In this document: piece after piece, positions 43,518 through 54,973 of the stretch
How the letters are laid out: each line of letters opens with the position of its first letter
How positions within the stretch are numbered: position 1 is the first letter of the stretch
Assembly (NCBI GenBank): GCA_023910605.1
Contig: JAAVVV010000001.1
Span: forward strand, 920,698-984,697
From: Bosea sp. (in: a-proteobacteria)
Lineage (GTDB): Bacteria > Pseudomonadota > Alphaproteobacteria > Rhizobiales > Beijerinckiaceae
Direction of reading: 5' to 3'
DNA length: 64,000 nt
The notes under the pieces: model-generated
Told to the model about the DNA's origin: nothing
Seen by the model: only the letters and a program-made list of their open reading frames with translations
Database searches by the model: none
Made by a program: the position numbers and the translations under genes

Positions 43518-45284
43518 TCAGGCGGCGAAGTCGGTGAAGTCGTCGAAGGAGTCGAAGTCCGCGCCGCTTTGCGATCCGGCTTCGGCCGCGGGGGCGGGCG
43601 CCGGCTGCCCATCGTCGAGGCCATGGGCGGCCAGCACGGCGCGGTGGACCTCTCTCTCGGCCTTCATCGTGTAGAGCGGCCAGACCTTCTGCGCGAGCAC
43701 GGAGGTGATGGCCGCCGGGTCCGCTGCGTCATGGCCCTGCGCGTCATCGGCCATGGCTTCAAGCCGCGCTGCGATGTCCTCGATTCCGTCCGTGCGCGCG
43801 GCCGTCGCCATGAAGGCCCGGCGGGCCGCAACGATGTCGCTTGAAAACGCGGCGGCGTCATCATGCAGGCGTTGCAGGAGGTCCCCCAGACGCTCGCCCA
43901 CGCGCCGGATGCGCCCGAGCGAGCCCTGCACCGTGGCATCGAAGGTCGAGATCCGGCCCGCATCGACCGCGCGTTGGCGCAGTTCGGTCGAAGCGGCCAG
44001 CATGCGCCCGAAGGTGGGTCCAAGCTCGCGAGCCTGACGCTCGACCAGGTCGGCGCCGCTCTTGAGCTCCTTGGCGATCACAACCAGCCCGCGGCCGCCT
44101 TCACCCAGATGCGCGGCGCGCAAGCCTGCATTGGTTCCCAGGAACACGATGTCCAGCACGGTGCGACGCAACTCCGTCACCGCCGTCTCGAAGCCTTCGA
44201 GGAAGGTGATGAGTTCGGCCATGACATGATCGACGCGGCTGCGCGCCCGGTCGCAATGGCCGAGGATCTCGGAAGCGGCGCCGAGCCCGGTCTCGAGATC
44301 GGCGACCAGCGAGGTCGACGATCCCGCATCGCCCGCGCCGACGAAGCCCTCCACCGAGCGGGTCAGCCGCCCGGTCTCGTCGCCCAGCAGCGCCAGGGTT
44401 TCGCTGACGCGGCCGCAATCCTCGTCCAGCAGCGCGGCGGTGGCCCTCAGCTGCGCGCCCTGCAACGTCGTCAGCACCGGGCTGAGACCCTCGATACTGC
44501 CATCGTCGATCCCGAGCGCGGTGATGATGTGCGCGATGCGCTGGCGGATGTTGTCGCCGGACTGGAGCGCTATCACGGCCTCGCTGGTGGCCATGATGAC
44601 CCGACCGGAATGGGCGGCCATCTCGTCGACCACGCCTGCGGTGGCGGCCTGCCGCTGGCCAAGCTCACGCAGCCTCTGGTCGATCTGCTCCGCAAGCTGC
44701 GACAGCGATGCGCCCATCTGCCCGTCAAAGGCGGATTGCGCCTTGAGGGCGGCGGCGATCCGGCTCGTGATCTCGCGATGGCTCCGCGCGCAGCTGTCGA
44801 TCACATCGCGCGCGCGCTGCGAACAGGTCCCGACCTCTTCCGCGAAGGCTTCCAGATCGCGCGCCGGCCCCCTGATGCTGGCGCGCTCGATACGCAGGTT
44901 CTGGGTCAGGATGCCGACGAGCCGCATGCTCGACCACAGCTCGCCAAGCAGCCGGCCGGCCGCCTCGCTATGGTCCTTGAGGGCCTCCAGCGCGGCCTTT
45001 TCATCGACCAGCCTGTCTTGCAGTGAGAGGATGTCGCGCGAGAGCCCGGCCAGCGCCTCGCGCGCCTCGGCCATCTCCGGGTGCCCGATCTCCTCAGCCA
45101 CCGCGCGCAGGCGGCCCTTGAGGCTGTCGAACATGGCGAGGCCCGCGCCGAAGCGCTGACCCACCTCCGCAAAGGTCCGGTCGATGTCGGCCTCGCCCTC
45201 GCGCAGGAGGGACAGCACGTCATCGGGCACGAAAGGCCCCGGCGCCATCGTGTCCCTCGCCAGTATCTGGATCGCAGGTTGCAT
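43518..45284 (-). CDS. soluble receptor-like chemotaxis protein
   Basis: A 588-residue, almost wholly alpha-helical protein without membrane segments. The region DIVFLGTNAGLRAAHLGEGGRGLVVIAKELK (about residues 388-418, quoted in parts) follows the receptor signalling tip pattern, in which typical MCPs read NLLALNAAIEAARAGE..GRGFAVVA.EVR, but with many changes. A Ser/Gly/Asp-rich tail ends in DFDSFDDFTDFAA. It is the last gene of the che operon, 14 bases after cheB. It may be a diverged cytoplasmic receptor or a scaffold; a direct CheA interaction is uncertain because the tip is degenerate. Confidence 0.7.
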   Translation of the reverse strand: MQPAIQILARDTMAPGPFVPDDVLSLLREGEADIDRTFAEVGQRFGAGLAMFDSLKGRLRAVAEEIGHPEMAEAREALAGLSRDILSLQDRLVDEKAALEALKDHSEAAGRLLGELWSSMRLVGILTQNLRIERASIRGPARDLEAFAEEVGTCSQRARDVIDSCARSHREITSRIAAALKAQSAFDGQMGASLSQLAEQIDQRLRELGQRQAATAGVVDEMAAHSGRVIMATSEAVIALQSGDNIRQRIAHIITALGIDDGSIEGLSPVLTTLQGAQLRATAALLDEDCGRVSETLALLGDETGRLTRSVEGFVGAGDAGSSTSLVADLETGLGAASEILGHCDRARSRVDHVMAELITFLEGFETAVTELRRTVLDIVFLGTNAGLRAAHLGEGGRGLVVIAKELKSGADLVERQARELGPTFGRMLAASTELRQRAVDAGRISTFDATVQGSLGRIRRVGERLGDLLQRLHDDAAAFSSDIVAARRAFMATAARTDGIEDIAARLEAMADDAQGHDAADPAAITSVLAQKVWPLYTMKAEREVHRAVLAAHGLDDGQPAPAPAAEAGSQSGADFDSFDDFTDFAA

Positions 45285-45298
45285 GTGGCGAGACCGGG

Positions 45299-46399
45299 CT
45301 AGGCGCTGCGCGCGGCCGGGCCCGGCGCGCTGCGCTGCGCCGAGGGCCAGTCCATGATCTCGCGCGGAATGCGCGCAAGGGGCGTGATGCGCTGCACCGC
45401 TCCGGCCGCGATCGCCTCCTTCGGCATGCCGAAGACCACGCAGCTCTCCTCGTCCTGCGCAAGCGTCATCGCCCCTGCATTTCGCATTTCCAGCAGGCCG
45501 CGCGCGCCGTCATCGCCCATGCCGGTCATGATCACGCCCATGGCGTTGGCCCCGGCGCTTTGCGCGGCGGAGCGGAACAGCACGTCCACGGACGGGCGGT
45601 GCCGCGAGACCGGCGGGCCATCCTTGATCGCGACATGATAGCGCTGGCCGGTGCGCTGCAGCACGATGTGCCGGTTGCCCGGCGCGAACAGCACGCGCCC
45701 GGTCGTCAGCTCGTCGCCATCCTCCGCTTCCTTGATGTCCATCCTGCAAAGCCCGTTGAGGCGGCGTGCGAAGGCGCCGGTGAACCTTTCGGGCATGTGC
45801 TGGACGATGACGATGCCGGGGCTTGTCTCGGGCAGCTGCTCAAGCACCTCGCGCAGGGTCTCGGTGCCGCCCGTGGACGATCCGATGCAGACGATGCGAT
45901 CCGTGGCGACGCGATCCCTGCGGAGAACCGGAGGCGGCAGGATAGCATCGGCGGACAGCTTCTTCTCGATCTCCATGCGCGCGCGCTTGGGCCTGAGCCT
46001 CGCCTGGGCTGCGGCGCGGACCGCATGGCACAGCCGGTCCGCCGTCTCCAGCAGCGCATTGCGGGTGCCGACGCGCGGCTTGGGCAGCACGTCCACCGCG
46101 CCGGCTTCCAGCGCGTCGAACAGCATGGGCGAGCCGGCCTCCGTCAGCGTCGAGCAGATGATGACCGGGATGGGCCGCTGCTCCATGATCTTGCGCAGGA
46201 AGGTGAGGCCGTTCATGCCCGGCATCTCGATGTCGAGGATGATCACGTCGGGCAGCTCGGACTGGAGCCGGCGAGCGGCCGCGAAGGCGTCTGACGCCGC
46301 CCCGATCACGCTGATGCCGGGCTCGTCGTTGAGGATCGACGACAGGACCTGCCGCACCGAGGCGGAATCATCGACAATTAGAACACGAATCGGATTCAT
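45299..46399 (-). CDS. cheB: chemotaxis methylesterase/glutamine deamidase
   Basis: A 366-residue protein. The receiver domain (residues 1-120) has DD at 10-11 and phospho-acceptor Asp56 in ILDIEMPGMNG. The methylesterase domain (about 165-350) has the triad visible as CIGSSTGGTETL (Ser), VIVQHMPERFTGAF (His) and MTGMGDDGARGL (Asp). It removes methyl groups from receptors and is activated by CheA. It starts 10 bases after cheR. Confidence 0.95.
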   Translation of the reverse strand: MNPIRVLIVDDSASVRQVLSSILNDEPGISVIGAASDAFAAARRLQSELPDVIILDIEMPGMNGLTFLRKIMEQRPIPVIICSTLTEAGSPMLFDALEAGAVDVLPKPRVGTRNALLETADRLCHAVRAAAQARLRPKRARMEIEKKLSADAILPPPVLRRDRVATDRIVCIGSSTGGTETLREVLEQLPETSPGIVIVQHMPERFTGAFARRLNGLCRMDIKEAEDGDELTTGRVLFAPGNRHIVLQRTGQRYHVAIKDGPPVSRHRPSVDVLFRSAAQSAGANAMGVIMTGMGDDGARGLLEMRNAGAMTLAQDEESCVVFGMPKEAIAAGAVQRITPLARIPREIMDWPSAQRSAPGPAARSA

Positions 46400-46409
46400 C
46401 GCTGCCTCG

Positions 46410-47285
46410 CTATGCCTTGTCGATATGCTGGAAGATGGTGGGTCTGGCCTGCCGCAAGCCAGCCACGCCGCTGGCAGCCATCGATTCAGAATGGCCCAGG
46501 ATCAGGAAGCCGCCTTGCCGCAGATGGCTGCACAGACGCGTGACGACCGCGCGCTGGACGTCCTTTTCGAAATAGATCAGCACGTTGCGGCAGAAGATGA
46601 TGTCGATGTCACGGTCGAAAGGATAGGCCGCATCTATGAGGTTGAGCTGCTGGAACGCCACCCGGGCCCGCAGTTCGGGCACAATCCGCACGGTGGCCGA
46701 GGCCGGATCCCGTGAGGCCATCAGGAAGCGCCGCCGCATGTCGGCAGGCACGGGCTCCACGAACTCGCGCGGATAGATGGCGGCCTGCGCCTCGTTCAGC
46801 ACCTCCACCGATATGTCCGTCCCGAGCACGGAGTAGCGGCGGATGCGGCCTGAATCGACCAGATCCTGCAGCACCATGGCGGTGGTGTAGGCTTCCGCCC
46901 CCGTGGAGGCGGCAGCGCTCCAGACCTTGAAGGATGGCAGCGCCGAACCCTGCCACTTGCCGATCTCCCGGACGGCGCCATCGCGCAGGAAGTCGAAATG
47001 GCTCGGTTCGCGGAAGAAATCGGTCTTGTTCGTGGTGACGCATTCGATGAGTTCGGGCATCTCGGCGGCAAGGCCACCCGCATCAAAGAGATGGGTGCCA
47101 TAATCGCGCAGGCTGTCGAGGCCCAGCGCCCGCACGCGCCGGCGCAGGCGTCCCTCCACCATGGTGCGCTTGCCGCGCGGCAGCTTGATGCCGGCGCGGC
47201 TTTCGATGGCGGTGGCGATCGCAGCGAAATGGCGATCAGAGAGGTGGTCCATCTCTGGATCGAGCAAGGGCTTCAGGGCGTTCAC
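46410..47285 (-). CDS. cheR: chemotaxis methyltransferase
   Basis: A 291-residue SAM-dependent receptor methyltransferase. It has an N-terminal helical domain (about residues 1-90, with IKLPRGKRTMVEGRLRRR), the SAM-binding motif VWSAAASTGAEAYTTAM (about 123-139) and IDIIFCRNVLIYFEKD (about 228-243). The GTG start overlaps the cheW stop (GTGA). CheR and CheB set receptor adaptation. Confidence 0.95.
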   Translation of the reverse strand: MNALKPLLDPEMDHLSDRHFAAIATAIESRAGIKLPRGKRTMVEGRLRRRVRALGLDSLRDYGTHLFDAGGLAAEMPELIECVTTNKTDFFREPSHFDFLRDGAVREIGKWQGSALPSFKVWSAAASTGAEAYTTAMVLQDLVDSGRIRRYSVLGTDISVEVLNEAQAAIYPREFVEPVPADMRRRFLMASRDPASATVRIVPELRARVAFQQLNLIDAAYPFDRDIDIIFCRNVLIYFEKDVQRAVVTRLCSHLRQGGFLILGHSESMAASGVAGLRQARPTIFQHIDKA

Positions 47286-47776
47286 GCTGCGACCTCTGCG
47301 TTTTCGGCGACTGCGTTCACGTCATCCTCTTCCATAAGGCGCGCCAGGTCGAAGATGATGACGAAGCCTGAATCCTTCCGCCCGATGGAGGAGATATAGC
47401 GCGACACCCAGCGGCCTCCGACCTCGGGCGGTGCATCCGCCTGGGTGTCGTCTAGCCGGGTGACCTCGAGCACACGGTCGGCCACGAAGCCGATGCCCAT
47501 GGTGCGCCCGCTCAGGGACACGTCGATGATGATGATCCGCGTCGCGCTCGTGGGCTCGACGCGCGGCAGGCCCAGCTTGGCCCGCAGGTCCACCACGGGG
47601 TAGCCCACGCCGCGCACATCGATGATTCCGATGAGGAAATGCGGCGCATGGGGGAGCCGGGTGATGGGCTGCATGTCGAGTATCTCGCGCACGCCGCGGA
47701 TGTCGATGCCGAAGGTCTCCTGTCCGAGACCCAGTGTGAGATATTGTGCGGAGTCAGCCATGTTGGCCTCGGTCAT
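47282..47776 (-). CDS. cheW: chemotaxis coupling protein CheW
   Basis: A 164-residue CheW-domain protein (YLTLGLGQETFGIDIRGVREIL near residues 11-32, IDVRGVGYPVVDLR near 52-65). It links receptors to CheA. The ATG at 47776 is listed; an ATG at 47761 (MADSAQ) with GAGG upstream is an alternative. It is one of two cheW genes in the operon; this one has a C-terminal extension (EEDDVNAVAENAEVAA) that the other lacks. Confidence 0.92.
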   Translation of the reverse strand: MTEANMADSAQYLTLGLGQETFGIDIRGVREILDMQPITRLPHAPHFLIGIIDVRGVGYPVVDLRAKLGLPRVEPTSATRIIIIDVSLSGRTMGIGFVADRVLEVTRLDDTQADAPPEVGGRWVSRYISSIGRKDSGFVIIFDLARLMEEDDVNAVAENAEVAA

Positions 47777-47823
47777 TGCGCCGCGAAAGGCGGCATGGGG
47801 GGCGCGTTGGGCCACAGTGGCGG

Positions 47824-49017
47824 GGGGGTGTTCCCCCCGCCTTGTGGTCAGGACCGCTTGAAGTCGTTGTCGGTGGCGTCGCCGCCGCCATCGAGGTCGA
47901 AGGCGAAGCCGCCATTGGCGACCTTGCGGGCTTCCGCCTGCGGCTTCCTGGCTTCGGCCTTGGCCTTGGGCCGGTTTGCGGCCTTCATCACGGCGGCCTT
48001 GGCGCGCAGCTGCGTCACCGCGCCGTCGAGCGGCTCGTGGCTGGCCGGGCGCGCGCGTTCAGCCCGGGACCCGCTGGCCGCATCGATGCGGAAGAAGGAG
48101 ATGGTGGACTGAAGCTGCTCGGCCTGGGAGGCCAGCTCCTCGGATGTGCCGGAGACCTGCTCGGAGGCTGCCGCGTTCTGCTGGGTCACCTTGTCGAGCT
48201 GCTGGATCGACTGGTTGATCTGGCTGGCACCGACATCCTGCTCGCGGCAGGCGGCGGTGATCTCCTCGACCAGCTCGGCGGTCTTGCGGATGTCGGGCAC
48301 CAGCCGGGACAGCATGGCGCCGGCTTCCTGCGCCACCTTCACCGTGTCGCCCGAGAGCGTGCCGATCTCGGCGGCGGCTGCCTGGCTGCGCTCGGCGAGC
48401 TTGCGCACCTCGGAGGCCACCACCGCGAAGCCCTTGCCGTGCTCCCCGGCGCGGGCTGCCTCGACCGCGGCGTTGAGCGCCAGAAGGTCGGTCTGGCGTG
48501 CGATCTCCTGCACGATGTTGATCTTGGCCGCGATGGTCTGCATCGCATCCACCGCGCGGCCCACGGCGATGCCGCTGGCCTCCGCATCCTTGGCCGACTG
48601 CGCGGCGATCTTCTCGGTCACCAGCGCGTTCTCGGCCGTCTGCTTCACGTTGGCCGCCATCTCCTCCATCGCGGACGAGGCTTCCTCGGTGGCCGCAGCC
48701 TGCTCGGTCGAACCTTGCGACATCTGCTCCGCGCTCGCCGAAAGCTGCTGGCTCCCGGCGGCGACATTGGACGCGGCGGAACCCGCCTGGCTCACGATCG
48801 AGCGCAGCTTGGCGATCATGCCCTCCAGCGCGATCCCGAGGCGGTCCTCATCGGACAGCCGGCTTGCATTCACGGTCAGGTCGCCATTGGAGATGGCGTC
48901 AGCGACATCCGCCGAGCCCCTGAGGTTCGTCACCATGGTTTCCAGCGCCTTCATCAGATCGCCGATCTCGTCCTGGCTGCTGACCTCGACAGTCTCGTCA
49001 AGATTGCCGACGGCGAC
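47824..49017. repeat. 1,194-bp near-identical repeat, copy 1
   Basis: This segment covers the HAMP end, signalling domain, stop codon and downstream hairpin of the receptor gene. It matches 50118-51311 at a constant offset of 2294 with a single difference seen (codons for MVTN here, MATN in the other copy). It is a recent duplication or gene conversion. Confidence 0.9.
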
Positions 49018-50067
49018 GGCGCGGGCGATCCGCACAGCTTCGCCGAGGCCCTGCGAGATCGAGCGGGCGAGGAAGAAGGCCGCCACTGCGCCGATCACGA
49101 TGCTGGCCCCGATGATCGAGAACAGCAGAGTCTTCGCCATCGCCGCCGCATCCGAGGCGCTTTTGGAGGTGGTCGCGTTCACGGCGGTAAGATGGCCGCT
49201 GTAGGCGTCAAGCGCGGCTTCAAGCTCCACGAAATTGCGGCGGCCTTCCCCGGTCGAGATCTGGATCGCCTTGATCCCGCCGGCCTCCAGAACGATCTCC
49301 TGAACCTTCTGGACCATTTCGAGCAGCTTGTCGGTCGCGGGCGCAAGCGTGCTGGCGGACACGTCAACGCCCGACACGAGCGCGACCGTCTTGGTTGTCT
49401 CCTGACGCACGAGTTCCGCAGTGCGGGCAGCCCGGGTGCGGAAACCATCGAGTTCGGCAAGCGAACTGGCGGAGAAGCTCTCGCTCACCTCCATCAGCAG
49501 GCGGCGTGTATAGAGCCGCGTGGTCTGGATCGAAACGGCGGCGCGCGTTGCGGGCTCCGAGCGGATCGCATCGACCTGGGTGAAGACATCATCCCAGGCC
49601 CGCATGAACCCGGCGATCGCCTCAGCCCCCTGCTTGTGCCAGTACTGCGCGGCGTGGCTGTTCGAGTTGAGCTTGGCGTTGCGCAGCACCTGATCCTGCA
49701 GCTCCACCATCTTGTCCAGCTTCGGCACGACTGCGTCCAGCAGGCGCTTTTCCGCCGCTGTGATGTTGGTGTTCAGATCGGTCTTGAGCTTGAGGGCCTT
49801 GTTTCTCATCTCAATCGCCGTGGCCGCATGCTTGGCCGCGTCGTCATCCTCGGTTGCCAGGATCGCGCTCTTTTCGTAGCTGATCGAGGTCTGCACGTCT
49901 GCGATCAGTTGGCTTACCTTGTCGACGCGAATGGCCAGCTGCTCCTGCCCCAGCCGAACCGCGTCGAGGTTCGCCAGTTGCTGGTAGGAGACGCCGCCGG
50001 CGATGGCGCCGAGCGTCAGCACGATGCCGAAGGCACCGGCAAGTTTGGACTTGATGCTCAGTTTCAT
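47848..50067 (-). CDS. methyl-accepting chemotaxis protein
   Basis: A 739-residue receptor. Membrane segment 1 is near residues 8-28, a periplasmic sensor of about 270 residues is predicted helical, and membrane segment 2 is near 310-335 ([21 protein letters not shown]). HAMP and linker run to about 420. The signalling domain has the tip [35 protein letters not shown] (quoted in parts; about 515-550). The tail ends in [11 protein letters not shown]. From about residue 350 to the end it is nearly identical to the second receptor, so the two sense different ligands but signal alike. The ligand is unknown. Confidence 0.93.
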
Positions 50068-50114
50068 GAGGGTGACCTTTTCAGTTTGGGAGGAAACATG
50101 TCGGCCTGGCGCCG

Positions 50115-50135
50115 GGCGGGGGTGTTCCCCCCGCC
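50115..50135 (-). terminator. GC hairpin after receptor gene (also at 47821-47841)
   Basis: GGCGGGGG-TGTT-CCCCCCGCC forms a strong short hairpin directly downstream of both receptor stop codons. It is part of the duplicated segment. Without a U-tract it more likely attenuates or stabilises mRNA between operon genes than ends transcription. Confidence 0.4.
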
Positions 50136-51311
50136 TTGTGGTCAGGACCGCTTGAAGTCGTTGTCGGTGGCGTCGCCGCCGCCATCGAGGTCGAAGGCGA
50201 AGCCGCCATTGGCGACCTTGCGGGCTTCCGCCTGCGGCTTCCTGGCTTCGGCCTTGGCCTTGGGCCGGTTTGCGGCCTTCATCACGGCGGCCTTGGCGCG
50301 CAGCTGCGTCACCGCGCCGTCGAGCGGCTCGTGGCTGGCCGGGCGCGCGCGTTCAGCCCGGGACCCGCTGGCCGCATCGATGCGGAAGAAGGAGATGGTG
50401 GACTGAAGCTGCTCGGCCTGGGAGGCCAGCTCCTCGGATGTGCCGGAGACCTGCTCGGAGGCTGCCGCGTTCTGCTGGGTCACCTTGTCGAGCTGCTGGA
50501 TCGACTGGTTGATCTGGCTGGCACCGACATCCTGCTCGCGGCAGGCGGCGGTGATCTCCTCGACCAGCTCGGCGGTCTTGCGGATGTCGGGCACCAGCCG
50601 GGACAGCATGGCGCCGGCTTCCTGCGCCACCTTCACCGTGTCGCCCGAGAGCGTGCCGATCTCGGCGGCGGCTGCCTGGCTGCGCTCGGCGAGCTTGCGC
50701 ACCTCGGAGGCCACCACCGCGAAGCCCTTGCCGTGCTCCCCGGCGCGGGCTGCCTCGACCGCGGCGTTGAGCGCCAGAAGGTCGGTCTGGCGTGCGATCT
50801 CCTGCACGATGTTGATCTTGGCCGCGATGGTCTGCATCGCATCCACCGCGCGGCCCACGGCGATGCCGCTGGCCTCCGCATCCTTGGCCGACTGCGCGGC
50901 GATCTTCTCGGTCACCAGCGCGTTCTCGGCCGTCTGCTTCACGTTGGCCGCCATCTCCTCCATCGCGGACGAGGCTTCCTCGGTGGCCGCAGCCTGCTCG
51001 GTCGAACCTTGCGACATCTGCTCCGCGCTCGCCGAAAGCTGCTGGCTCCCGGCGGCGACATTGGACGCGGCGGAACCCGCCTGGCTCACGATCGAGCGCA
51101 GCTTGGCGATCATGCCCTCCAGCGCGATCCCGAGGCGGTCCTCATCGGACAGCCGGCTTGCATTCACGGTCAGGTCGCCATTGGAGATGGCGTCAGCGAC
51201 ATCCGCCGAGCCCCTGAGGTTCGTCGCCATGGTTTCCAGCGCCTTCATCAGATCGCCGATCTCGTCCTGGCTGCTGACCTCGACAGTCTCGTCAAGATTG
51301 CCGACGGCGAC
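50118..51311. repeat. 1,194-bp near-identical repeat, copy 2
   Basis: Partner of 47824-49017. The identity stops at 51311, inside the codons following the second membrane segment, so the sensor parts of the two receptors are unrelated. Confidence 0.9.
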
Positions 51312-52010
51312 CTTGTTGGCGAGGCTCAGCGCGGCCGCCAGGTTGCGGCGGATGCCCAACGCGACCATGATGGTTATGGCCAGGCCGAGCAGCGTGATGC
51401 CGATGCTCAAGGCGATCATCAGAAGTTTGAGCTGGTCGAACAGCGTAACGCTCTGGTTGCGCAGTTCGCGCGAAGCGCCCAGCTGGTATTCGGTCAGCTT
51501 GCCCACGGCTTCGGAGATGGGGTCGATCGTGGCGTAAAGTTCGCTGGCTATGAAGCTCTCGAGCCTAGGCATGTCCTGTGAACGTATGATCTCACGCAAC
51601 TCGCCAATCTTGGCGGCCGCCTTGCTCCGCGCTGCGGCCACATTGTCGGCGAGGGCGACTTCAACCGCCGAATGCGAGCCGGACTTGTAGTTCTTCCACT
51701 CGCGGTCGATCTTCGTCGCGGCACTGGCGAGGGTCTCCTGTCCCGCGCTCCAGCTCAGCGCACCGGCCCTGACCTTGTGGGCGGCATCGACCATGTCGAC
51801 GCCATAGGCGTCGGAGACTTGCTTGAGCTGCTGGATGGCTTCGACGCGGTTGGAGTACAGGCTCTCCACATTCGCTTCGAGGCGGAACATGCCGAAGATC
51901 GCAACTCCGCCTACGCAGCCCGCGATCGTTACGCTCGAGATGAGCTGGACCAGGGTGATCTTGGCGGCGATCCCCTTGAGCGCAGAGCGTTTTTTGACAG
52001 CGTCAGGCAT
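50142..52010 (-). CDS. methyl-accepting chemotaxis protein
   Basis: A 622-residue receptor. Membrane segment 1 is near residues 15-40, a four-helix-bundle-like periplasmic sensor of about 150 residues follows, and membrane segment 2 is near 192-216 ([23 protein letters not shown]). HAMP and the signalling domain then match those of the neighbouring receptor almost exactly, including the C-terminal [11 protein letters not shown]. It follows cheW (52084-52563) and precedes the other receptor by 74 bases. Confidence 0.93.
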
Positions 52011-52083: not shown

Positions 52084-52563
52084 TCAGCTCAGCAACAGCT
52101 CGAGATCCGGCACGAGGACGAATTCCTCGCCCCAGCGGAGCATGAACTGGACGAATTCGGGATTCCATCGCGCGCCGATGCGTGGCGTCGACATGGATTG
52201 GGCGGACTCCACCTCGGTGACCTCGAACACCTTGTCGGCGATGAGCCCCACGGTGACCGGGTCGCCATCGACCTCGACCGCCACGACCACGAAGCGCGTG
52301 TCGGGCGTCTCCGGGCCGCGTGGCAGGCCAAGGCGCAGCGCGACATCCGCAAGCGGGATGACGTTGCCCCTGACGTTGATGAGCGCCGGCAGGAAGCTGC
52401 GCGCGCCGGGCACGACAGTGAGCGGAACCGGGTCGATGATCTCGCGCACGCTTTCGGTGCGGATCGCGAGGATCTCACGCCCCAGCCCGACCATAAGGAC
52501 CTGCAAGGTGGAGTCGGCACGTGCGCCGGCCGGCAGGGATGCGGTGACCTGGGCGTCCATCAT
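52084..52563 (-). CDS. cheW: chemotaxis coupling protein CheW
   Basis: A 159-residue CheW-domain protein ([22 protein letters not shown], then [21 protein letters not shown]). The start at 52563 overlaps the cheA stop (ATGA), which couples translation and helps keep CheA and CheW in proportion. A longer open frame to the right is antisense-like and is rejected. Confidence 0.92.
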
Positions 52564-54611
52564 GCTGCCTCCGTGTGCCGTTCGGCGCTGCGCTGGGTGT
52601 GGGACATCGTGAGAAGCTGCGCGACGTCGAGGATGAGCGCGACCGAGCCATCGCCGATGATGGTGGCGCCCGAGAACATGACGGCATCCGCATGCAGCTT
52701 GCTCAGGGTCTTGATGACCGTCTGGTGGCTGCCGATGATCTGGTCGAGGACCAGCCCGACGCGGGTTTCGCCGATGGTGACGATCACGATCTTCTGCAAC
52801 GGCTCGGCCTCGCCGGGCTCGGTGAACAACTCGCGCAGCTTGAGGAAGGGAACGAGGTCGCCGCGAACGTCGAGCATGTTGCGCCCGCGCGCCCGGGCCT
52901 CGACGGCCGGCGTCAGCTCGATGCACTCCTCGATGGCCGAGAGCGGGATGATGTAGCGGCTGCGGCCGACCCGCACGAGCAGGCCATCGATGATGGCCAG
53001 CGTCAGCGGCAGGCGCAGCGTCATCGACGAACCCTTGCCAGCCACGGTGGACACATCGATCGTGCCGCGCATCGCCTCGATGGTGCGCTTGACCACATCC
53101 ATGCCGACGCCGCGGCCCGAAAGGGCCGAGACGGTCTTGGCGGTGGAGAAGCCGGCGTGGAACAGGAACTGGTGGATGTCGTGGTCGCTCATCGGCGTGC
53201 CGGGAGCGAGAAGTCCGGTTTCCTCGGCCTTGGCGCGGATGCGCGCCGTGTCGAGGCCGGCGCCGTCATCCTGCACGGTGACCAGCACCTGCGCGCCCAC
53301 ATAGCGCGCCGAAAGCTCGATGCGCCCGGTCGCCGCCTTGCCCGACGCCGCACGCCGCTCGGGCTGTTCGATGCCATGGTCGATGGAGTTGCGGATGAGG
53401 TGGACCAGCGGATCGGCGAGCCGCTCGATCATGGTCTTGTCGAGCTCGGTGTCCTCGCCGACGGTGACGAATTCGACGGGCTTGCCAAGATCGCGCGACA
53501 GGTCGTGGATCAGGCGGCGGAAGCGCCCGAAGAGCGAGCCCATCGGCACCATCCGCACGCCCATGGTGGAATCGCGCAGCCCTGAGGCCAGCCTCTCGAT
53601 CTCCTCGGCGATCGCCTTGATCGAAAGATCCCCGCCTGCATGGGCGATCTGGCTCAGGCGCGCCTGGACGATGACGAGTTCGCCCACCCGGTCCATCAGC
53701 TCGTCGAGCCTCTCGGCCTGCACGCGCACGGTCTGGCCCTTTGCGTCCGTCCGGCGAACCGCTTCGTTCCTGTCCGCTGGCTCGCGCTCGGCGGATGGGG
53801 CGGCAGCCGCGGCTTCGGGTTCCACTGGCGCGCTGGCGCTCGTCGCTTCGGTCTTCAGCGCTGGCGCCGCTTGCGCCTCGCCAGGTTCGGCTGCGGCCAG
53901 CGGCTCGATCGCCAGTTCCATCTCGTCGCGGATGAACAGGAACACATCCTCGATGTCCGAGCGCGGGCAACCCGCGGCAAGCTCGACCGTCCAGGTGATC
54001 AGGCACTCGAGCGGCTCAAGCGCGGAGAGCTCCGGCACGGCGTCTGTATTGGCCGTGATCGTGCACGGGCCGAGCCCGCGCAGATCGTCGAGCAGGGCAA
54101 GGGGGTTGGCCCCGTTGCGCATGACCTCGGGCGCAAAAGCGATGCGGATGCGCCAGCCCTCGTGCTTTGCAGGCCCCGCGGCGGCCTCGGCCGGTGCGGC
54201 GGCTGCGAGGCTGTTGTGCGGCGCGCCGGCCGCGCCGCTGCCTGCGAGCAGCTGCTGCAAGCTGGCGACGATGCGCTGGCCAGTGGCCTCGCTGGTGCTG
54301 ATCGGGTCCTCGATAAGCTGGCGGATATGGTCTTTCGCTTCCAGCGACAAGGTCACGATCTCTTTGCCGGCTGCGATCTTGCCCTTGCGGATCAGGTCGA
54401 AGGCGGTCTCGAAATCATGGGTGAAGGAGGCCACGCGGTCGAAGCCGAACATGGCGCCCGAGCCCTTGATCGTGTGCAGCGCCCGGAAGGCCGCATCAAC
54501 CAGCTCGCCGTCGCCGGGGTTCTGGCCGAGATCGAGCAGGGAGGCCTCGAGGCTTTCGAGAAGTTCGGCGGCCTCCTGGCGGAAGACATCGGCGGGATCG
54601 AGGTCCATCAT
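52560..54611 (-). CDS. cheA: chemotaxis histidine kinase
   Basis: A 683-residue kinase. The Hpt domain has His46 in FRALHTIKGSGAMFGF. A Pro/Ala/Glu-rich linker follows near residues 240-290, then the dimerisation domain (about 295-360) and an ATPase domain with N-box HLIRNSIDHGIE and G-boxes VQDDGAGLD and GRGVGMDVVK. A CheW-like regulatory domain lies at the C-terminus (about 540-675). It phosphorylates the CheY encoded just upstream (4-base overlap) and CheB. No separate CheY-binding P2 domain is obvious, though the 130-220 stretch could be one. Confidence 0.95.
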   Translation of the reverse strand: MMDLDPADVFRQEAAELLESLEASLLDLGQNPGDGELVDAAFRALHTIKGSGAMFGFDRVASFTHDFETAFDLIRKGKIAAGKEIVTLSLEAKDHIRQLIEDPISTSEATGQRIVASLQQLLAGSGAAGAPHNSLAAAAPAEAAAGPAKHEGWRIRIAFAPEVMRNGANPLALLDDLRGLGPCTITANTDAVPELSALEPLECLITWTVELAAGCPRSDIEDVFLFIRDEMELAIEPLAAAEPGEAQAAPALKTEATSASAPVEPEAAAAAPSAEREPADRNEAVRRTDAKGQTVRVQAERLDELMDRVGELVIVQARLSQIAHAGGDLSIKAIAEEIERLASGLRDSTMGVRMVPMGSLFGRFRRLIHDLSRDLGKPVEFVTVGEDTELDKTMIERLADPLVHLIRNSIDHGIEQPERRAASGKAATGRIELSARYVGAQVLVTVQDDGAGLDTARIRAKAEETGLLAPGTPMSDHDIHQFLFHAGFSTAKTVSALSGRGVGMDVVKRTIEAMRGTIDVSTVAGKGSSMTLRLPLTLAIIDGLLVRVGRSRYIIPLSAIEECIELTPAVEARARGRNMLDVRGDLVPFLKLRELFTEPGEAEPLQKIVIVTIGETRVGLVLDQIIGSHQTVIKTLSKLHADAVMFSGATIIGDGSVALILDVAQLLTMSHTQRSAERHTEAA

Positions 54612-54973
54612 GTGCGCACCAGCTTGGCGATGACGGCGTGAAGCTGCTCAGGCTTGAACGGCTTGGTGATCCAGCCCGTGGCGCCGGCCTGCTTGGCTTC
54701 CATCTTCACCGCCTCATCCGATTCAGTGGTGAGGAAGACGATGGGGGTGCCGGTCAGCGCCGGAAGCTGGCGCAGGTTCTTGATGAGGGCGATGCCGTTC
54801 ATCACGGGCATGTTCAGGTCGGTGAGGACAAGGTCGAAGCGCTGCGCCTTGGCCTTTTCGAGACCCTCAGCGCCGTCGCCGGCTTCGGCCACGTCATGGC
54901 CTGCCGAGGACAGGACCATCTTGACCATCTGCCGTATGCTGGGGGAATCGTCGACTGTGAGGATTGCTGCCAT
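54608..54973 (-). CDS. cheY: chemotaxis response regulator
   Basis: A 121-residue single receiver domain. DD is at residues 8-9, phospho-acceptor Asp52 is in VLTDLNMPVMNG, Thr is in FLTTESD and the conserved Lys is in ITKPFKPEQL. It overlaps cheA by 4 bases. It would act on the flagellar motor or another output, which is not encoded in the window. Confidence 0.93.
   Translation of the reverse strand: MAAILTVDDSPSIRQMVKMVLSSAGHDVAEAGDGAEGLEKAKAQRFDLVLTDLNMPVMNGIALIKNLRQLPALTGTPIVFLTTESDEAVKMEAKQAGATGWITKPFKPEQLHAVIAKLVRT

Follow-up and report, generated by a model that had tools for sequence, protein, structure and literature searches.

Paralogous chemoreceptors whose signaling halves are near-identical and whose sensors have diverged are already known, and two described sets come closest to the locus reported here. 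The neighboring Pseudomonas aeruginosa paralogues PctA, PctB and PctC share more than 96% identity in the signaling domain and less than 56% in the sensor (PMC6974571), and the Campylobacter jejuni receptors Tlp2, Tlp3 and Tlp4 combine identical or near-identical signaling domains with sensors that are about 30% alike (PMC9769880). In the available parts of these papers, the likeness is ascribed to duplication and selection for PctA/B/C and to duplication and conservation for the Tlp proteins; no silent-site test appears in the portion of PMC6974571 available to us, and the terms ‘gene conversion’ and ‘recombination’ have no occurrences in its main text. For Campylobacter, the accessible passages propose that C-terminal DNA repeats of the Tlp receptors mediate inversions (PMC6433261) and that CcrG (Tlp11) arose by a domain swap (PMC5080441). 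Here we analyze an adjacent receptor pair, MCPA and MCPB, with the same contrast between sensor and signaling half, located in a chemotaxis (che) operon of Bosea sp. (Alphaproteobacteria; assembly GCA_023910605.1, contig JAAVVV010000001.1, positions 920,698 to 984,697 of the forward strand). This stretch of 64,000 nucleotides is referred to as the window. While the Tlp genes are dispersed and encode dCache sensors, MCPA and MCPB lie side by side and have 4HB-type sensors, and here silent sites, a sister genome and phylogenetic trees indicate gene conversion.

MCPA (47848..50067, minus strand), the second receptor of the array, is an open reading frame of 739 amino acids comprising a 4HB sensor, a HAMP domain, one HAMP-like unit, an MCP signaling hairpin and a tail (Pfam 4HB_MCP_1, HAMP, MCPsignal). 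MCPB (50142..52010, minus strand; 622 amino acids; Pfam TarH, HAMP, MCPsignal) is the first, with a TarH/4HB sensor joined mid-HAMP to a backbone of the MCPA type. Both proteins score above the cut-offs for PF00015, PF00672, and PF12729 or PF02203, which identifies them as transmembrane MCP chemoreceptors. An ungapped comparison confirmed the original prediction that the two genes share a 1,194-bp segment with one difference: positions 47824..49017 and 50118..51311 (both minus strand), offset by 2,294 bp, differ only at 48932/51226, where a GTG codon (valine) in MCPA corresponds to GCG (alanine) in MCPB. The repeat contains 1,170 coding bases (390 codons, counting the stop) and extends from mid-HAMP, beginning at MCPB residue 234, through the signaling hairpin, the tail and the stop codon to 24 non-coding bases that reach into a downstream hairpin. 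The predicted sharing of signaling domain, stop codon and downstream hairpin thus held, the hairpin being included for the most part. In the same comparison the borders are sharp, similarity being lost immediately on either side. The description of the sensors as unrelated was too strong: BLASTP detects no similarity between them at E 1e-3, but both reach the Pfam family 4HB_MCP_1 (34.4 and 27.2 bits, cut-off 27), and the MCPB sensor also matches TarH (32.1 bits, cut-off 25.2).

The likeness of the two backbones might be explained by purifying selection or codon constraint alone, with no exchange of DNA. The hairpin is indeed highly conserved between species, at 0.77–0.97 identity on average in 30-bp bins, and it is selection that the consulted part of PMC6974571 credits for the signaling-domain identity of PctA/B/C. 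However, the predicted perfect silent-site identity was borne out, with 0 of 224 four-fold silent sites differing between the two copies. Between the window and its nearest relative, G043 (CheB 93% identical), 26–32% of four-fold sites differ in the neighboring genes cheB, cheR and cheW1. The CheW types of these operons are also not alike, window CheW1 against the relatives’ CheW2, and the reverse, giving only about 34–40%. Since no silent site differs and the identity extends over 24 non-coding bases, protein constraint is excluded as the cause, and selection acting by itself was rejected, its probability being close to nil. The same contrast with G043 implies that the event is much younger than the split between these two lineages.

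An assembly artefact, in which one copy was duplicated or over-polished, would produce a similar picture, and the assemblies of six relatives do break in this region. We consider it very improbable here, since the copies lie in different flanks within a 3.76-Mb contig and a conserved operon context, differ at position 48932 and by two bases in a G-run, and are matched by comparable identity in other genomes, such as L138 and L110 described below. The window assembly consists of two contigs, and both copies, with their different flanks, are within one of them; the second measures about 1.56 kb (total minus contig 1). A search of the 3.76-Mb assembly with the repeat returned these two copies, the next match being 84% over 135 bp; the other receptors of this genome showed no comparable homogenization in that search, sharing at most about 135 bp at 84%.

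Comparison with relatives indicates which gene was altered. A genus search covered 67 genomes including the window, and 25 besides the window had matches below 1e-60. The array comprises one receptor in 7 of these 25 and two or three complete receptors in 11; it is broken by contig ends within the core in 6 (about 1 expected; Poisson P 5e-4, from rounded contig numbers) and interrupted by runs of N in 1. This last case, a receptor near 4483-6647 of L096 (Bosea sp. Leaf344), has its N runs in the core, an assembly gap or mask at the point where other assemblies break. Two backbone types are apparent. Type 1, found in the first receptor of all 11 other complete multi-receptor arrays, passes from HAMP straight to the hairpin; type 2, found in the second receptor of 10 of those 11, has a further unit, about 39 residues long, behind the HAMP domain. 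The tails also distinguish the types, except in G052, whose two tails are alike. In the window both receptors are type 2 and each scores one unit with the unit profile, at approximately 48793..48918 in MCPA and 51087..51212 in MCPB (both minus strand). Because first receptors otherwise lack the unit and second receptors almost always have it, a gain in MCPB is the simplest explanation. In G043, the receptor beside cheW2 and cheA is an orthologue of MCPB by its sensor (70% over 195 amino acids) and lacks the unit, BLASTP opening 39 gap positions where the window has it. The HAMP region of MCPB, and most simply its whole backbone, thus appears to have been replaced by that of MCPA.

We therefore regard recent gene conversion, in which at least 1,194 bp of MCPB were overwritten from MCPA, as the probable origin of the repeat, with 47824..49017 as the putative donor tract and 50118..51311 as the putative recipient. 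We infer that both genes existed beforehand and that the direction was from MCPA to MCPB; our confidence is lowered because the state of the two genes before the event is itself reconstructed. The original prediction had left the choice between recent duplication and ongoing conversion. Of the two, conversion is better supported and recurs in relatives (see below). A recent tandem duplication in the window lineage, with replacement of one sensor and gain of the HAMP-like unit on the way, is unlikely, although it would account for the perfect silent identity of the backbones and of the 24 non-coding bases. Arrays of two or three receptors occupy the same place in 11 of the 25 relatives, and in G043 the MCPB sensor sits on a unit-less HAMP region, so that an exchange at HAMP would be needed in any case.

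Several observations nevertheless weigh against conversion, and some of them favor a duplication. No relative of the MCPA sensor was detected in G043, where the search hit the two interrupted ends of the backbone and some receptors of lower similarity; among 34 other Bosea-group sensors the best match is 38%, so no close relative is present in the genus sample. A sensor search of the genome contigs found no relative. The G043 array has two contig ends that leave a gap inside the core. The array might consist of one receptor only, in which sensor B is combined with a unit-less HAMP region and a tail of type 2, much as in the single receptor of G003. The window species is represented by one genome only, and a multi-step unequal crossover could yield the same outcome.

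Unequal crossing-over between sister chromosomes, with a change in copy number and loss of the old backbones, is quite improbable as the origin of the window pair. Array size does vary from 1 to 3 across the genus, and in the single receptor of G003 a type-2 tail is combined with a HAMP region that lacks the extra unit, the arrangement expected from a deletion inside the core. G003 is consistent with such a deletion hybrid, yet its sensor is ambiguous, with no clear match to position-1 sensors (best 39%, to G030). Both sensors and their order are intact in the window, so at least two exchanges would be required where one conversion suffices. The predicted loss of 2.3 kb by recombination between the copies is plausible in view of the seven single-receptor relatives, G003 among them. 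The accompanying idea that recombination would swap sensors or build a hybrid receptor did not hold: since the backbones are now identical, a crossover would give no new sensor combination but would delete the MCPA sensor and leave the present MCPB, except perhaps at the valine/alanine site and the G-run.

Homogenization of the hairpin core recurs across Bosea, which supports the ongoing conversion named in the original prediction. The set comprised 12 multi-receptor genomes, the window included, with the contig-end fragment G046_1 left out of trees and means. In the core (48091..48756 in MCPA and 50385..51050 in MCPB, minus strand), mean four-fold identity was 0.856 for the 14 pairs from one genome and 0.656 for the 249 pairs that occupy the same position in different species, so that paralogues are closer to each other than to the orthologues of other species. 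For the tail the values were 0.537 (13 pairs) and 0.571 (249 pairs). A profile in 30-bp bins, comparing 13 within-genome pairs without the window with 110 orthologue pairs, located the effect: within genomes, identity was 0.82–0.99 in the core, 0.57–0.77 in most HAMP bins and 0.43–0.69 in the tail, while position orthologues of other species had 0.77–0.97 in the core and flanks mostly above the paralogue values. The HAMP and tail flanks of the relatives’ copies thus carry an older divergence. The nearest copy was the paralogue from the same genome for 19 of 25 cores, 4 of 25 tails and 2 of 25 HAMP parts, compared with means of 0.87–0.90 and maxima of 7, 6 and 9 in 2,000 label shuffles.

Tree topologies agree in most genomes. 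Copies join by genome in 9 of the 12 genomes in the core tree and in 2 of the 12 (G000 and G052) in the tail tree, and a tree constraining the position-1 cores together was rejected by 401 log units (approximately unbiased test, p-AU 0.0046). On the opposite side, the copies of G049, G051 and G056 are not joined by genome in the core tree, and a tree constraining the position-1 tails together was rejected as well (13.7 units, p-AU 0.0168), a result that we attribute to the likeness between the two tails of G052.

The pattern extends to other Alphaproteobacteria. A receptor was included in the comparisons only with a core score above 250 bits against the window core. A CheB search supplied 80 named loci, one of which (L116, with overlapping open reading frames) was left out; this gave 146 copies in 68 loci, and the 55 loci with several receptors were compared. 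The nearest copy came from the same locus for 78 of 133 cores, 27 of 133 tails and 2 of 85 pre-core parts. Identical runs of at least 100 bp occurred in 21 of 101 within-locus pairs and in 4 of 10,484 between-locus pairs. In 20 further loci the corresponding counts were 31 of 44, 20 of 44 and 3 of 24, the tails there being partly homogenized too, which blurs the restriction to the core. Two loci are close parallels to the window. In L138 (Xaviernesmea oryzae), three tandem MCPs are identical over 639 of 639 core bases, while their tails and pre-core parts differ and their unit numbers are 0, 1 and 2; judged by its sequence, this is a second very recent homogenization. Identity over 639 of 639 core bases is also seen in L110 (Agrobacterium vitis CG78), between receptors one and three; the middle receptor is about 84–85% like them over roughly 1 kb. 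Taken as sequence patterns, these comparisons indicate homogenization of the hairpin core among the copies of one genome, both in Bosea and in other Alphaproteobacteria; the part ahead of the core is not homogenized, and the tails are less so.

In the mechanism we propose, the two receptor genes would act as direct repeats at a distance of 2.3 kb, and homologous recombination, probably RecA-dependent, would copy the hairpin from one to its neighbor. Differences in the HAMP-like unit and the tail would usually limit the extent of the tract. In the window the tract would have gone further, taking the HAMP-like unit, the tail and the 3' hairpin, so that MCPB retained its sensor and transmembrane part and acquired the MCPA backbone, hence its second HAMP-like unit. 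Recurrent conversion of the core would keep the part that contacts CheA and CheW and is methylated alike while the sensors diverge. A likely, though putative, benefit is that receptors expressed together would all remain able to work with one CheA and CheW. The lengthened stalk of MCPB is a possible cost or innovation of the window event.

The extra unit of type-2 backbones is, on profile comparisons and a structural prediction, HAMP-like. Alone, the window unit scores 12.1 bits against Pfam HAMP, below the cut-off of 25, but a stretch built of such units in L170 (Rhizobium) reaches 30.8 bits. A solved HAMP-Tsr fusion matches the window unit at E 6.4e-6, with the coiled coil supplying part of the score, and hhalign pairs the unit with the first HAMP of the same receptors at E 7.6e-5 with a probability of only 34% (core control, E 0.041). 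The last receptors of two Bosea arrays, G064_2 and G049_3, were left out of the HAMP profile. These two (in L062 and L055) have a common sensor type, 77% identical over 173 amino acids, that matched no other sensor among the Bosea receptors compared and is joined to the common core. An AlphaFold2 model of 48580-49098 as one chain predicts a helix-connector-helix-connector-helix arrangement (pLDDT 82, pTM 0.49). The unit also lengthens the stalk: in 99 measurable copies, each unit adds about 40 residues between the second membrane helix and the hairpin, with medians of 65, 105, 146, 184 and 298 residues for 0, 1, 2, 3 and 6 units (n=33, 36, 25, 4 and 1). One receptor, L169_3 (L169:4206-6617), carries six tandem HAMP-like units at a spacing of 39 residues. 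This exceeds the one or two that chemoreceptors usually carry, according to the consulted part of PMC6628036.

Receptors of the same locus tend to differ in the number of these units. For counting, score limits of 15, 25 and 35 were tried; 25 and 35 agreed and were used. The first set contained no score in the range 20–40, and the second contained one of 35–40. Each of the 55 named multi-receptor loci contains copies with unequal unit numbers, and in 53 of the 55 no two copies have the same number; 5,000 shuffles gave a mean of 27 and a maximum of 38 such all-different loci. In a second sample of 49 stretches, 3 of them from a class-wide search in which most matches listed were at most 50% identical, all 20 multi-receptor loci likewise contain unequal copies, and every copy differs from the others in 18 of the 20 (shuffle means 13.2 and 9.8, maxima 19 and 16); L218, one of the two misses, includes a contig-end fragment. 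The Bosea arrays are not all equal in 10 of 12, and at a score limit of 15 numbers differ in only 6 of 12. Taken together and without L218, the samples comprise 86 loci, of which 84 contain copies with unequal unit numbers and 80 have a different number in every copy, with 0–6 units per receptor. The two all-equal loci are the window (1,1) and G064 (0,0), the second receptor of which is unusual ahead of the core; some copies are equal in L055, L144, L157 and L214. The loci are related, and the named and other sets may share species. The unit pattern changes at least 30 times on the CheB tree, and three-copy loci, all different in 24 of 28, give better support for this stalk-length ladder than two-copy loci, whose common 0/1 pattern may be one old state retained.

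How the ladder might act can be judged from concatenated HAMP units elsewhere. Aer2-Tar chimeras with one or two HAMPs gave opposite output in the absence of CheR and CheB (PMC3570549), FrzCD is a di-HAMP protein (PMC12077210), and responses can be inverted by mutations where the HAMP domain meets the hairpin (PMC6062612), as far as the available parts of these sources go. The receptors studied here likewise place a putative series of HAMP units between their sensor and the kinase-control module. They are, however, transmembrane 4HB receptors, while Aer2 and FrzCD are soluble proteins, and their unit number varies between the tandem copies of one operon. The accessible text of PMC6628036 gives a HAMP length of 35 Å and says that receptors of different length sort into separate arrays. 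We tentatively suggest a two-part rule, as an idea more doubtful than not: conversion would keep the hairpins alike, while each copy would keep its own stalk length through its number of units (0–6) and so sit at its own height, in separate arrays or with signals of opposite sign. The window conversion would have broken this rule and rewired sensor B, either merging it into the MCPA array or changing its output.

The operon is read from the minus strand in the order cheY-cheA-cheW2-MCPB-MCPA-cheW1-cheR-cheB, followed by a gene for a 588-amino-acid protein, and by this context MCPA and MCPB may work with the CheA, CheW, CheR and CheB encoded beside them. The genes were assigned from Pfam matches: cheY (54608..54973; Response_reg), cheA (52560..54611; Hpt, H-kinase_dim, HATPase_c, CheW), cheW2 (52084..52926 as the longest open reading frame, with the true start probably further downstream; CheW over residues 142-279), cheW1 (47282..47815; CheW), cheR (46410..47285; CheR) and cheB (45299..46399; CheB_methylest and Response_reg). 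The hairpins 3' of the stop codons lie at 47819..47841 after MCPA (RNA fold -29.2 kcal/mol, z -3.88) and at 50115..50135 after MCPB (-27.4 kcal/mol, z -2.18; mostly within the putative converted tract), both on the minus strand, and the G-run that differs between the copies is two bases longer after MCPA. By eye, no T run was seen after either hairpin, so we do not term them intrinsic terminators; G043 has a hairpin-like sequence 3' of its type-2 stop codon, as read by eye. The last gene (43518-45284) has no Pfam match at 1e-3; near 44010-44141 it contains a degenerate stretch resembling an MCP tip (PF00015, E 9.8e-4). It occupies the same place in most Bosea stretches at 35–41% identity (79% in G043), and its product may be a receptor-like partner of CheA and CheW. 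Bosea tails of both backbone types, for example at 47848-47900 (minus strand) in the window, show by eye a conserved end pattern, GGF-F ... D--F-R, perhaps a docking site for CheR or CheB.

Among the matches listed for open-licence papers, judged by title and the start of the abstract, neither the conversion evidence nor the ladder was described, and the part seen of PMC12654446, which reviews the Agrobacterium fabrum system, makes no mention of the present pattern. Near-identical signaling halves were already known; the conversion evidence and the ladder, a testable regularity for which we found no description in the open-licence literature, are new as far as found. The wider value lies in the recurrence of homogenization and in the stalk-length ladder, which the window breaks. 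If receptors do sort into separate arrays by length, as the accessible text of PMC6628036 says, one operon could run several insulated arrays on the same kinase, and nature would have provided, in the window strain, an experiment on the loss of that separation. Near-identical signaling halves have hitherto been read, in the consulted parts of PMC6974571 and PMC9769880, as those of duplicates with fast-evolving sensors, held alike by selection. Here the silent sites, the sister genome and the trees indicate that gene conversion refreshes the likeness, so that the signaling domain is no safe guide to the age of the paralogues.

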